From Nevskiaceae bacterium (GTDB lineage: Bacteria; Pseudomonadota; Gammaproteobacteria; Steroidobacterales; Steroidobacteraceae): a stretch of DNA of 64,000 bases. The notes under the pieces are model-generated. The model made no database searches and was not told where the DNA came from. It saw only the letters and a list, made by a program, of their open reading frames with translations. The position numbers and the translations under genes were made by a program. The stretch spans positions 62,001 through 126,000 of the forward strand of contig VEQP01000001.1 of NCBI GenBank assembly GCA_018883185.1. Direction: 5' to 3'. This document shows positions 32,730 to 37,164 of the stretch, piece by piece; positions within the stretch are counted from its first letter, which is position 1, and every line of letters begins with the position of its first letter.

Positions 32730-33551
32730 TCAAGGCTCCGCGCCGAGAAACTCCTCGATCAGACTCGCCAATCGCTCGGGTGCAGCTTCCCACATGCCGT
32801 GGGCAAGCTCGGCGAGCTCGATAGTGCGAGCGTCTTGTCGTAGCGCGATTGCGCGGCCCGTCGCCTCCCACAAGTCGTCCTTGGGACGCATGATCATCAA
32901 CGGTTGTTTTATCTGGCTCAGCGCGGCGGTCATCTCGTAGTTGACGATGGCTCTTGCGCCACGCTCGCGAGCGCCCGGACGCATTTTCTCGGCGTAGGTC
33001 CGCAGCACGCTGTCGCGCGACTGCGTGGGTCCACGCCAGTGCCACGAGCGGCGCCATTCTTCCCGTGCCCAGTCGCCGTGCTCGTCGAACGGTATGGGTG
33101 TTTGCGCGCCGAATGAGGCGCGTTCGTCCGCGCTAAACACGGGCACTGCGGCCAGTATGACTCGGCGGATCTGCAACGATGAATCGAGAGCGAGTTGCGT
33201 AGCGACGGCCGCGCCCGTGTGATACCCGAGCACATCGATGCCGACCTTACCGTAACCGAGAGCTGTGATCGCATCGATGATGGCGAGTGCGTAGTGCTCG
33301 ATGTTTTGCGGATCAGGCGCGGGGTCGGACATGCCGAAACCAGGCAGATCCAGCGCGTAGACATCGCGATCCACCGCGAGTAACGGCATGACCGGCTCGA
33401 ATATTTGCCCTGAATTCGGCACATGATGAAGGCAAAACAACGGCGGTCTTCCGGCCGCGGTCGCCGGAGATACCCGGAAGTGGAGTTGCCCGAAGCGGCA
33501 CGGCGCATAGCCTCGAGACACGCTCGGTCTGTCCCGTCGGTCAACAGCCAC
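32730..33551 (-). CDS. Alpha/beta hydrolase with His at the nucleophile position
   Basis: The GTG at 33551 starts a 273-residue alpha/beta hydrolase. The oxyanion loop region is FCLHHVPNSG, the cap and second strand read YALDLPGFGMSDP, and the elbow, normally GxSxG, reads GYHTGAAVA, with a His where Ser is expected. The acid strand is MIMRPKDDLW and the final His is in LAHGMWE. The same replacement occurs in the hydrolase at 38202-39014. Such a protein may use another nucleophile or be a lyase-like or cofactor-free oxygenase type. The substrate is unknown. The convergent GST gene ends 17 bases away. Aromatic context is suggestive only. Confidence 0.8.
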   Translation of the reverse strand: MAVDRRDRPSVSRGYAPCRFGQLHFRVSPATAAGRPPLFCLHHVPNSGQIFEPVMPLLAVDRDVYALDLPGFGMSDPAPDPQNIEHYALAIIDAITALGYGKVGIDVLGYHTGAAVATQLALDSSLQIRRVILAAVPVFSADERASFGAQTPIPFDEHGDWAREEWRRSWHWRGPTQSRDSVLRTYAEKMRPGARERGARAIVNYEMTAALSQIKQPLMIMRPKDDLWEATGRAIALRQDARTIELAELAHGMWEAAPERLASLIEEFLGAEP

Positions 33552-33574: not shown

Positions 33575-36448
33575 TCAGTTCGTGCGCGCAACGCGGAAGC
33601 CGCGTGTGCTTGAGCGAGCGCCAACCGCATCTTCAGTCCGCGCCGTGGCACGCACGGCATCAGCGCCATCGAACCACGAGCCGCCGCGTACCACGCGACG
33701 ATCGCAATCGCCCGAAGTGTCTGCGATACCCGAGCTTGGCGCGTTGCGATAGGTGTCGCTCCAGCAGTCGAGGATCCATTCTTCCGCATTACCGAAGAGG
33801 TCGTGCACCCCGAACGGATTCGGTTGAAAGCTGCCGACCGGTGCCGTACCCGCATGTCGATCACGGCAATCAAACGGCGTCTCGAGTCCAAGCGAGCCTC
33901 GGCCTGTGGCGTCCGCTACGTTCGCAAAGCGACAGGCATCGGCGGGGTTTTCACCCCAGAACCGCTCTCCCTCGGTACCTGCGCGAACGGTGTATTCCCA
34001 CTCGGCTTCGGTGATCAGACGATAGTTATGCCCGGTTCGCACGCCTAACCATTCGGCGTAGGCCTTGGCATCGTCCCAACTAATGCAGACGACGGGGTCA
34101 TTCTCGGTTTGCGGAAAGCCGGGGCTGTTCCATCCGGCCTGCGCGTTGACACGGAATTTTTTGGCGTTAAATGTGGCGCAGCCAAGGCCGCCCGCGCGAC
34201 TGGTTTCGCGCACGAACCGCGCGTACTGCGACCAAGTGACCTCATGCTTGCCGATAGCGAATGTTCCCGGGATGGTCACGGTGCGGGCTGGTCCCTCGTT
34301 GGGACGTCGAGCCTTGCGGTAATCGGCAAGACCCATTTCAAAGCGGCCCGGCGGCACCACCACCATCTCGGGGCAGTCTGGGCAATCACGAAACACCGTT
34401 CCAGCGCCGAGTTGCTGTAGGTCACCCACGTTGCTGCCGGAGACTACGGACGTCTGCGTCGGGGCTGGGTTTGCAGTCGCCGGCGCGTTGGCGCGATTGG
34501 GGTTGTTGGCGGTCATGGCCGTGGGCGGCGGGTTCGATCCGCCGCTCTGAATCGAGCGCAAGCGTGCATTGGCGACGCCGGCAAACAGGCCTTGCGGGAA
34601 CGCAGAGAGGTAAGCCTGGATTTCCTCTGGATTCTTTGAGTCGCGGACCGACTCCCACAGTGCGCGATCGTCCGTCGGCAGTGCGGCGACCATCATCTGT
34701 GGTTGCGCGGCCATTTCTGTGGGGCGATTCCCGGCGATCGCAGGGGTGAAATAGAACTCCCCCACGGCCTGGTCGTACAGTGCCGGCACCTGTTCGTGTC
34801 CCACGGACTTGGCGAGTGTTACCACTTCTTGCCGAGTGCGCTTGAGCATCTGATCGACCGGCACTCCCGGACGCGTCATCTCCCGCAAAAGCACTCGCGT
34901 GAAGAGTCCGTTCGGATCCGGGTCGGCCGGCGTCAAATAGTCGAGGGCGGTTTGGCCTGCGCCCGCCGAGAAGAGAATCATCTGTCCTGTCGCGGCGGTG
35001 GTCGGCGCGAGGCCGCGCGTGCCGCCGATGCTGCGCGTGCCCACTTTCGGGAAAGGGTTATCACGACAAGCGTCGACGATGGCGACCGAGAAGCGAACTT
35101 TCTGTTCGGCCAGATCATCGAGCACGCGCTGCAGCATCACAGCGTCATCCTTCACCTGCTCTTCGTTGTCCGCCGAGATATTTGTGGGCAGTAGGTAGTT
35201 GGCGGCACCGAGCTGTACGCCATGCCCCGCGTAGAAGAACACCGCTTCGCTGCCACCATCGAGCCGTGACTTGAAATCACGCATCGCCTGGCGCAGCGCA
35301 CGATCATCTAGATCCATGCGCAACAGAACGTCGAAGCCAAGATTATCGAGCGCCGCTGCCATGGCCTCAGCGTCTGCACGTGAATTGCGCAGGCTCGGGA
35401 CTGTGGCGTAGTTCTGGTTGCCGATAACGAGCGCAACGCGCGAGGGGCCGCGCGGTTCGGGCGCGGCGGACGTGGGCGCGGCGGACGTGGGCTCGCCGGT
35501 GGTCGATGCTGCGATCGGTGCGGGTTGTGCAGCGGGTGAGGTCAGTGACGGCTGTGGGGTCGGCGGTGACGAGGGCGTCGCTTGATTCACCACGGCCGAA
35601 TTGGCGGCGAGCGCAGCAACAATGGATCCCCCCGTTAGGGTCGAGCTTTGTGCGGCAGCCGCGGGTGTGGCCGCCGCAGATGCGGCGACGGCCGGTGCCG
35701 ATGAAACGGGTTCTGCGGGTGGCGACGCCGGTTCCGCCGCGGACAGCGTTCGTGTGCTTTCGCTCGCAACGCTCGCGACGGCAGCCGGCGCGGAGGCAGC
35801 GTCGGCTACGGCCCCCTGAAATCGGTCCTCGCGCCACAACCCTGACTGCAAGACGCGGCCGGCGGCATCGTACAGCGTGCCCGTGCCCCAACGCTTGCTC
35901 TCGCGAAACTCGCCGACATACTTCGAGCCGTCGGGTTGGGTGTCCGACCCCTGACCCTCGCGTTCATCGCCGCGAAATTGGCCGACGTAAACACGACCAC
36001 TCGGCCAGGTGTAGGTGCCCTGACCGTTCTTTTCGTCATCGCGCCACTCGCCCACGTACTTCATGCCGTTGGAGCTCGTGTAGGTGCCAACGCCGTTGAA
36101 CATGCCGTCGCGAAAGTCGCCGGCGTACACGAAGTTCTTTTCCGAGGTGTAGATGCCCTGACCGTGGAACTTGTCGTCGCGGAACTCGCCGACATAACGA
36201 TCGCCGTTCGGCCAAGTGGCCGTGCCTTGCCCGTTGTACTTGCCGTTACGGAATTCGCCGGTGTACAGGGCCCCCTCGGTTGTCGTGTAGTTGCCGATGC
36301 AGTTGTTCCAGCCCACCCGGGAAGTGCCTTTGCAGGGCGGGAGTGGCTTTTTGGCCGCCGTGGGCGCTTGAGCGTGGAGGGGCTGAAGGGTCAGGCACAG
36401 CAGTGCGACTGCCCAAAAAGCCCGATTTTTCACGAAAAGCGAAAGCAT
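33575..36448 (-). CDS. MORN repeats, caspase-like (C14) domain and FGE-sulfatase domain protein
   Basis: The 957-residue protein has a signal peptide (WAVALLCLTLQPLHAQA). Six to seven MORN repeats follow at about 60-195 (YTGEFRNGKYNGQGTATWPNG, then similar units each of about 23 residues). A Pro/Ala-rich linker spans 213-335. A peptidase C14 caspase-like domain spans about 336-570, with catalytic His409 in FFYAGHGVQ and Cys461 in VDACRDNPFP. A formylglycine-generating-enzyme/sulfatase-modifying-type domain (about 682-957) has MVVVPPGRFEMG, KHEVTWSQYARF, WDDAKAYAEWL, TEAEWEYTVRAG and VVRGGSWFDG. Each module is known; the combination in one exported chain is striking. The FGE-type fold may bind rather than convert a substrate. 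Its function is unknown. Confidence 0.9.
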   Translation of the reverse strand: MLSLFVKNRAFWAVALLCLTLQPLHAQAPTAAKKPLPPCKGTSRVGWNNCIGNYTTTEGALYTGEFRNGKYNGQGTATWPNGDRYVGEFRDDKFHGQGIYTSEKNFVYAGDFRDGMFNGVGTYTSSNGMKYVGEWRDDEKNGQGTYTWPSGRVYVGQFRGDEREGQGSDTQPDGSKYVGEFRESKRWGTGTLYDAAGRVLQSGLWREDRFQGAVADAASAPAAVASVASESTRTLSAAEPASPPAEPVSSAPAVAASAAATPAAAAQSSTLTGGSIVAALAANSAVVNQATPSSPPTPQPSLTSPAAQPAPIAASTTGEPTSAAPTSAAPEPRGPSRVALVIGNQNYATVPSLRNSRADAEAMAAALDNLGFDVLLRMDLDDRALRQAMRDFKSRLDGGSEAVFFYAGHGVQLGAANYLLPTNISADNEEQVKDDAVMLQRVLDDLAEQKVRFSVAIVDACRDNPFPKVGTRSIGGTRGLAPTTAATGQMILFSAGAGQTALDYLTPADPDPNGLFTRVLLREMTRPGVPVDQMLKRTRQEVVTLAKSVGHEQVPALYDQAVGEFYFTPAIAGNRPTEMAAQPQMMVAALPTDDRALWESVRDSKNPEEIQAYLSAFPQGLFAGVANARLRSIQSGGSNPPPTAMTANNPNRANAPATANPAPTQTSVVSGSNVGDLQQLGAGTVFRDCPDCPEMVVVPPGRFEMGLADYRKARRPNEGPARTVTIPGTFAIGKHEVTWSQYARFVRETSRAGGLGCATFNAKKFRVNAQAGWNSPGFPQTENDPVVCISWDDAKAYAEWLGVRTGHNYRLITEAEWEYTVRAGTEGERFWGENPADACRFANVADATGRGSLGLETPFDCRDRHAGTAPVGSFQPNPFGVHDLFGNAEEWILDCWSDTYRNAPSSGIADTSGDCDRRVVRGGSWFDGADAVRATARTEDAVGARSSTRGFRVARTN

Positions 36449-36552: not shown

Positions 36553-37164
36553 ATGAAATACCTCATTTCGCTGCTTTGGGTGGGTTTCGCGTCCTCGGCT
36601 GCCGTGGCCGCAGACCCGGTCAATTTCTGTGCGACCCCCGCGGAAGTTGCGCGGGTCAGGGCTGAATTAGCGGATAAGCCGCCGGGCCCCTTGGGTGGTC
36701 CGGCGCGGAAACTAGGCTTGAGCGAGGCCGTGGTGGCGAGCGCCCTGCCGGCCGATCAGGCTCACGGCGTGGCCGCCAACCACTTTCCGGCTATCTGGAA
36801 AAGCCTCGAGCAGTGGCAGGACGCGGTGACCCTCATCACCAAAGGGGCCGACGTTTTCGAAGTTCTCGGCCCCGTCGGCGAGGGCTCTCCCTCGACGCGC
36901 AGCAAGTTTTTCAACCTTAAGCGCGAGGGCCCGGGGCTGGCTGGACACCTGCGCCCCGATCTCTATTCGGTCATTTACCTGCTCTCGGTCCCCGGCAAGG
37001 ATGGCGGTCTGCGCGGCGTGAGTTTTCACGCGCAGAGTGGCGAATCGGTATTTGCCGTGTTCCTGCCGGGCGAGGGTGCAACGCCCCCGCCGGCGGTCGT
37101 CAAGCAGTTCGAGGACACCCAGCGACTGATCCGATCTCTGCCGTCGGTCTGTCCGATCAAGTAG
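36553..37164 (+). CDS. Exported ChuX/HutX-like (haem carrier fold) protein
   Basis: The 203-residue product has a signal peptide (KYLISLLWVGFASSAAVAA). The rest follows the ChuX/HutX haem-utilisation fold: PADQAHGVAANHFPAIWKSL near 70-89, then EVLGPVGEG, KFFNLKREGPGLAGHLR, and SFHAQSGESVFAVFLPG near 155-171. ChuX and HutX are cytoplasmic haem carriers or storage proteins, so a periplasmic relative is unusual. Conserved His/Met ligands in the normal position cannot be assigned by eye. It is divergent from the MORN/caspase gene, 104 bases away. A haem- or tetrapyrrole-binding role in the periplasm is my inference. Confidence 0.68.
   Translation: MKYLISLLWVGFASSAAVAADPVNFCATPAEVARVRAELADKPPGPLGGPARKLGLSEAVVASALPADQAHGVAANHFPAIWKSLEQWQDAVTLITKGADVFEVLGPVGEGSPSTRSKFFNLKREGPGLAGHLRPDLYSVIYLLSVPGKDGGLRGVSFHAQSGESVFAVFLPGEGATPPPAVVKQFEDTQRLIRSLPSVCPIK

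Follow-up and report, generated by a model that had tools for sequence, protein, structure and literature searches.

A chain joining MORN repeats, a caspase-fold domain and a PvdO-type domain behind an export-like N-terminus in a Steroidobacteraceae genome

The window analysed here is a stretch of 64,000 nucleotides from Nevskiaceae bacterium (Steroidobacteraceae; assembly GCA_018883185.1, contig VEQP01000001.1, positions 62,001 to 126,000), and the positions given below are counted from its first letter. A single open reading frame (ORF) on its minus strand fills 33575-36448 exactly and joins a MORN repeat array, a caspase-fold peptidase domain and a C-terminal domain of the formylglycine enzyme (FGE) type. 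This three-module chain had been proposed, with no strand named, in an earlier, sequence-only reading of the window, and the Pfam matches within the one ORF, far above the curated cut-offs for all three domains, bear it out. The features of the locus are as follows:

33575-36448, minus strand: whole gene, 957 residues plus stop (ORF, Pfam, purifying selection)
36371-36448, minus strand: signal-peptide-like N-terminus, residues 1-26, apparent cleavage after LHA (by eye)
36281-36352, minus strand: short N-terminal segment with C39 and C50, common to the three orthologues
35831-36280, minus strand: MORN repeat array, residues 57-206 (Pfam MORN, PDB match to MORN1, modelled beta strands)
35447-35830, minus strand: Ala/Pro/Ser-rich linker, residues 207-334, predicted disordered, fast evolving
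34745-35446, minus strand: caspase-fold peptidase domain, residues 335-568 (Pfam; MALT1 sequence and fold match)
35222-35224, minus strand: codon of the catalytic His409 (motif and alignment)
35066-35068, minus strand: codon of the catalytic Cys461 (motif and alignment)
34529-34663, minus strand: helical module, residues 596-640, between caspase and FGE domains, no Pfam name (helices in the model)
33578-34414, minus strand: PvdO-type FGE-sulfatase-fold domain, residues 679-957, lacking the FGE Cys pair (Pfam, PvdO matches)
32730-33551, minus strand: alpha/beta hydrolase gene, 23 bases downstream on the same strand (order the same in L007, not in L008)

Two orthologues of the window protein were found, L007 (Gammaproteobacteria bacterium WB9_1A_092, genome G011) and L008 (a Steroidobacteraceae metagenome-assembled genome, G018). 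By eye, the N-terminus resembles a secretion signal ending in LHA, with QA after the apparent cleavage point, and its hydrophobic character is kept in both orthologues; to that extent the signal peptide of the sequence-only reading stands. The repeat array matched Pfam MORN in five stretches (E 6.8e-29, 98.4 bits vs a cut-off of 22.5) and MORN1 in the PDB (E 1.1e-32), and a pattern search (Y, any residue, G, E/D/Q, F/W) placed six repeat starts at 23-residue spacing from residue 62. We then consulted an AlphaFold model (37-row alignment, mean pLDDT 75.6, pTM 0.43), which was confident for the caspase and FGE domains and fell below pLDDT 50 at residues 21-32, 209-294, 296-326, 572-591 and 638-666. 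Its MORN segment consists of beta strands with block pLDDT of about 61-82, less certain than the other two modules, and all Foldseek and VIA matches listed for the model were to caspase or FGE domains, so the MORN assignment is sequence-based. Because the pTM is low, the model does not fix the relative placement of the modules. The literature listings searched yielded no usable account of bacterial MORN function.

The central module matched Peptidase_C14 at residues 337-561 (E 9e-31), with H409 in YAGHG and C461 in DACRDNP, the two residues and numbers named in the earlier reading. MALT1 was its best PDB match both by sequence (E 1.1e-12; animal caspases were weaker, E 0.001-0.008) and by fold (Z 27.9, 2.6 A over 217 residues; caspase-6, Z 23.8). 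Across 41 aligned rows, which matched at E 1e-5 or better and count one locus (L005/L086) twice, the His, the Cys and D459 were each present in 40/41, and D359 in 39/41 with one gap and one Ser. The His is missing in L033, a contig-end fragment, and the Cys in L134, whose matched stretch ends before its Cys; both misses are thus rows with no letters at that position, and the dyad is conserved among the homologues, a point on which the sequence-only reading had staked its proposal. D359 and D459, which we take to be S1 pocket residues, both align with Asp of MALT1. By alignment, the module appears to combine a His-Cys dyad in a p20-type domain with acidic S1 pocket residues, as orthocaspases (C14) do, and it also carries the DxCR motif of paracaspases; the death and immunoglobulin domains that mark a type I paracaspase had no Pfam match beside the protease in the window protein. 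Characterised C14 members other than caspases are described as preferring Arg or Lys through an acidic pocket, and DxCR alone as not enough to call a bacterial protein a paracaspase (PMC5756287). Because of these two statements and the Asp alignment, we label the protease as putatively orthocaspase-like with a paracaspase-like pocket, and its specificity is probably for Arg or Lys. It differs from MALT1 in being bacterial, in its export-like N-terminus and in the absence of those flanking domains.

The C-terminal module matched FGE-sulfatase at residues 692-955 (E 1e-58). Its closest solved relative was the periplasmic PvdO of Pseudomonas (5hha), by sequence (E 4.8e-49) as well as by fold (Z 36.2, 2.0 A over 258 residues), and the two share the F-x-DC-x-DCPEM start, which places the domain in the PvdO-like group of the FGE/C-type-lectin fold. 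However, PvdO acts in the pyoverdine pathway as a protein of its own, and the window domain is not filed as PvdO because it scored 197.8 bits against the NCBIfam PvdO equivalog model, far below the cut-off of 500. The C-type-lectin/FGE variable proteins of retroelements (TvpA, 2y3c) share the fold too (Z 29.9), whereas the window protein gave no sign of hypervariation and its genome, 89.6% complete, had no match to reverse transcriptase (PF00078). The earlier reading had asked whether the two catalytic cysteines of true FGE are kept. They are absent: the window protein has no Cys at the positions aligned with C336 and C341 of human FGE, and two Cys in columns 920-940 were found in 0/117 related domains (one Cys in 6/117), these rows being limited to matches to the window domain at E 1e-30 or better, which leaves out distant true FGEs. 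The domain is therefore not a formylglycine enzyme. Caspase-FGE fusions have been on record since 2012, and it has been speculated that proteolysis is coupled in them to formylglycine modification (PMC3501461); this idea fails for this group, since the Cys pair is missing here and in the related domains.

Leaving the signal-like segment aside, the cysteine count is exactly 11 in all three orthologues: the catalytic residue, eight within the FGE domain, and C39 and C50. C895 (111/117), C915 (100/117), C757 (107/108 ungapped rows), C861 (67/72 ungapped), C689 (102/105 ungapped) and C692 (102/107 ungapped) are general in the family of related domains. This Cys pattern suggests that there are probably disulfides formed in an oxidising compartment, with one free nucleophile. 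We also asked whether the FGE domain was captured recently from one of the genus's own stand-alone paralogues, which the FGE tree did not support: the three orthologues group on a long branch (0.8) where resolution is poor, and they do not belong to the supported clade with 10 of the 13 stand-alone rows from the own genome or genus. PvdO-type FGE matches are abundant in the genus (e.g., G012, G017, and contigs 64 and 59 of the own genome); G012 has 16 matches to the window protein (P0001), 14 of them to the FGE domain, perhaps a lineage-specific expansion.

Selection was then compared across the chain. The window protein and L007 are 90% identical overall, with dN/dS of 0.010 (MORN array), 0.012 (caspase domain) and 0.017 (FGE domain) for the modules and 0.20 for the main linker. 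In the comparison with L008 the values were 0.067, 0.050 and 0.054 for the three modules in the same order, which are rough because dS is near 2, and identity was 78%, 86% and 84%, with the linkers at 32-52%. The Ala/Pro/Ser-rich linker (residues 207-334) is 56% and 38% identical to its counterparts in the two orthologues. All three modules are under strong, similar purifying selection, while the linkers drift, and the low dN/dS of the modules relative to the linker identifies a functional protein, not a chance ORF. Faster evolution of the FGE than of the caspase domain was considered as a sensor signature and set aside as inconsistent across sets: FGE identity was the lower in 5/6 pairs of one array and in 3/3 orthologue pairs (30 upstream residues included), and the higher in 3/3 Nevskia pairs.

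To place the architecture, we scanned genome contigs and obtained 79 loci (best 80 of 140 kept, led by short peptides of the window protein, so that near relatives are found). At least 21 ORFs among these loci carry caspase and FGE domains together, two of them being the MORN-bearing orthologues. Caspase-FGE proteins in general have an FGE-type domain after the caspase, in many cases an N-terminus that looks export-like, and a mostly kept His-Cys dyad, and every example opened differs from the window protein in having no MORN array before the protease. When 11 caspase ORFs of the phylum sample were opened, in 7 regions of many matches, FGE was present in 7/11 and MORN in 0/11. A crude pattern detected an export-like hydrophobic stretch before the caspase in 23/29 caspase-FGE ORFs, including the two orthologues; it also responds to the linker in L007 and, in L017, probably to a stretch that is no signal. 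L009 and L155 escape the pattern although by eye they look signal-like, and L047 and L117 lie beyond its reach, as their ORFs begin only just ahead of the caspase. Within the genus, 3 of 24 genomes encode the full MORN-caspase-FGE chain. It was seen in none of the remaining genomes among 40 relatives (which include those 24), and, among the matches listed, in no other of 75 class genomes and, with a MORN-caspase query, in no other of 80 phylum genomes. Since up to 21, 11 and 19 candidates per genome were scored in the relatives, class and phylum searches, and 20 and 7 regions were opened, a remote case of the full chain could be missed.

The closest caspase stretch outside the orthologues is the L033 fragment (72% over 144 residues), which has no FGE domain after the caspase and whose N-terminal part lies off the contig. 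It is followed by a caspase-FGE protein with a signal-like start (60%) and by caspases of Betaproteobacteria (L023, 59%; L012, 55%) in which Sel1 repeats replace MORN and the FGE domain is lacking. MORN-metacaspases from Baltic Sea metagenomes (six sequences) likewise carry 1-4 MORN repeats before the caspase, but no FGE domain appears on those rows, and some may be fragments; MORN-metacaspase and metacaspase-FGE are separate rows of the same Table 1 (PMC4933709). FGE is reported in 33/671 bacterial metacaspases (PMC3501461), and among the matches listed from the open-licence literature no description of MORN, caspase and FGE as one chain was found. The modules thus mix freely, and MORN-caspase-FGE is one rare combination. 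The caspase-FGE core is common and already described, only the N-terminal MORN array is unusual, and in the genomes sampled the MORN version is confined to one genus; hence the earlier view of the design as unusual holds for the MORN addition and not for the export-like caspase-FGE part, which is common and published.

Mobile origins were also considered. A pattern scan of viral contigs found nothing and, although 23 phage records gave a match, the 10 listed match only the FGE domain, so a phage origin was rejected. A plasmid-borne MORN-caspase was rejected likewise: 274 plasmid records matched, none over more than 80% of the query, and the 25 rows listed cover the caspase part only. Two further loci were noted. 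One comprises four caspase-FGE genes in tandem, with signal-like starts (L154:4775-11805, G114 contig 108), and by eye adjoins genes resembling nitrogenase cofactor genes; the other is a cluster of four MORN-repeat ORFs (L129, G085 contig 168, about 49-54 kb).

These results suggest an exported caspase-fold protease for Arg or Lys sites that is localised or triggered by two tethered binding modules, a proposal to which we give a little better than an even chance. The protein would be a periplasmic or secreted endopeptidase of the orthocaspase/paracaspase-like kind, held between the two binding modules on long disordered tethers. Its N-terminal module would be a MORN beta-solenoid and its C-terminal module a PvdO-type C-type-lectin fold, probably stabilised by disulfides. 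Both modules would most likely bring the protease to a cell-envelope target or ligand, and binding, or the clustering that follows from binding, would turn the protease on or aim it. Judged from the anatomy of the chain, both modules most likely bind a partner, and this binding most likely governs cutting.

Several observations weigh against this proposal. Export is only probable, judged by eye from a signal-like N-terminus. The FGE domain evolves only slightly faster than the caspase domain among the orthologues (84% vs 86% to L008), and when the 30 upstream residues are included (79% vs 87%) there is still no clear sensor signature. In the L154 array, which lies outside the 41 rows, FAGYGV replaces the GHG motif in copy 3, and in copy 4 the Asp at two positions before the Cys is gone; with the His lost in 1/4 copies, some members of the wider group cannot be proteases. 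Of the eight cysteines in the FGE domain, C788 (87/117) and C839 (66/117) are not general in the family. Finally, by analogy with PvdO, which is needed for an oxidation (PMC6206403), the C-terminal domain might be enzymatic.

The last point leads to an enzyme pair, in which the PvdO-type domain would oxidise or otherwise modify a periplasmic peptide or a siderophore-like product, with the caspase trimming this product or its carrier. We regard this as unlikely. In its favour, loss of PvdO, the closest solved relative, leaves the last oxidation of pyoverdine undone (PMC6206403), and a divergent gene with a ChuX/HutX haem-utilisation domain (36553-37164, plus strand) lies next to the window gene. 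The score far short of the PvdO equivalog cut-off speaks against it, no pyoverdine genes were present among the neighbours scanned, no such ChuX/HutX neighbour was apparent by eye in L008, and purified PvdO was inactive with no detectable cofactor (PMC6206403). The sequence-only reading had favoured a self-cleaving envelope stress sensor, from which stress would free the MORN or the C-terminal module by autoproteolysis. The predicted disordered linkers on both sides of the protease, an Arg that all three orthologues have where linker and caspase meet, and a gene with Pfam 'Sensor' and HAAS matches about 5 kb away on the other strand are consistent with such a sensor. However, linker 1 is poorly conserved and has only R209, R233 and R333 (R233 is absent from L008), a scan of 10 neighbours found no sigma or anti-sigma gene, and no neighbouring gene was seen to be shared by all three orthologues; we doubt this explanation.

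The earlier reading had also pointed to defence or programmed cell death. The protein would then be a conflict-system effector whose FGE/C-type-lectin domain senses an invader and whose caspase kills the cell. FGE-type invader sensors and caspase effectors have been described (PMC8195603, PMC7159879, PMC10907252), secretion is predicted for at least one of these targets (DGR 5, PMC10907252), and the window protein has a weak match to the PADLOC 'caspase' model (E 6.8e-10, positions 5-178 of 453). In the published defence link, however, the chains are tied to STAND or MoxR ATPases and to diversity-generating retroelements, and many of the described targets are predicted to be cytoplasmic, whereas the window chain is export-like. 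A diversity-generating retroelement was ruled out, as the genome has no reverse transcriptase match; STAND, MoxR and EACC1 partners were absent from the chain and the 10 neighbour proteins, PADLOC hit 0/10 of these neighbours, the EACC1-type caspase model scored 46.9 against a cut-off of 140, and the FGE domain is under strong purifying, not diversifying, selection. The neighbours scanned are mostly metabolic enzymes and differ between the orthologues: they include FAA hydrolase, GST, DUF1838, MOSC, PALP and GNAT domain proteins, a second alpha/beta hydrolase, an IclR regulator and the HAAS/'Sensor' protein. By eye, gene order is the same in L007 and differs in L008, so no conserved partner was seen. 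With no reverse transcriptase, defence partner or conserved operon found, a defence or suicide role is unsupported; this explanation, quite improbable in our estimate, has the least support of all, as none of the partners known for it turned up.

Within the proposal of a tethered, exported protease, a more specific form would make the protein a single-chain, MALT1-like signalling protease, in which MORN docks on the envelope, the lectin-fold domain reads a ligand and clustering fires the Arg/Lys protease. It is a speculative form that we think has a slim chance of being right. If true, such a protease would be an envelope counterpart of clustered caspase signalling that works without any NTPase. 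For the C-terminal modules of this group, a binding role or a PvdO-like reaction is the candidate in place of the formylglycine idea. What is new here is the lack of FGE cysteines in the C-terminal module, the similar constraint on the three modules and the restriction of the MORN version to one genus in the samples. With three conserved modules and loose linkers, the orthologue set offers a clean protein for dissecting the role of each module.

Some minor observations were made alongside. A helical module of 37 residues (34529-34663 in the window) lies between the caspase and FGE domains in many of these proteins, with 8 tandem copies in L039 (6728-9685) and 3 in L030 (5770-8301), and it also occurs in a kinase-PEGA-MORN protein (L127:472-3657). 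ChuX/HutX proteins are generally cytosolic; in the neighbour at 36553-37164, an apparent secretion signal precedes the domain by eye. The own genome encodes another caspase-domain protein on contig 28 (L148:4515-8757), of 690 residues and with a signal-like start by eye. It directly adjoins what by eye looks like a TPR-CHAT protein, which would put two caspase-fold proteins side by side.

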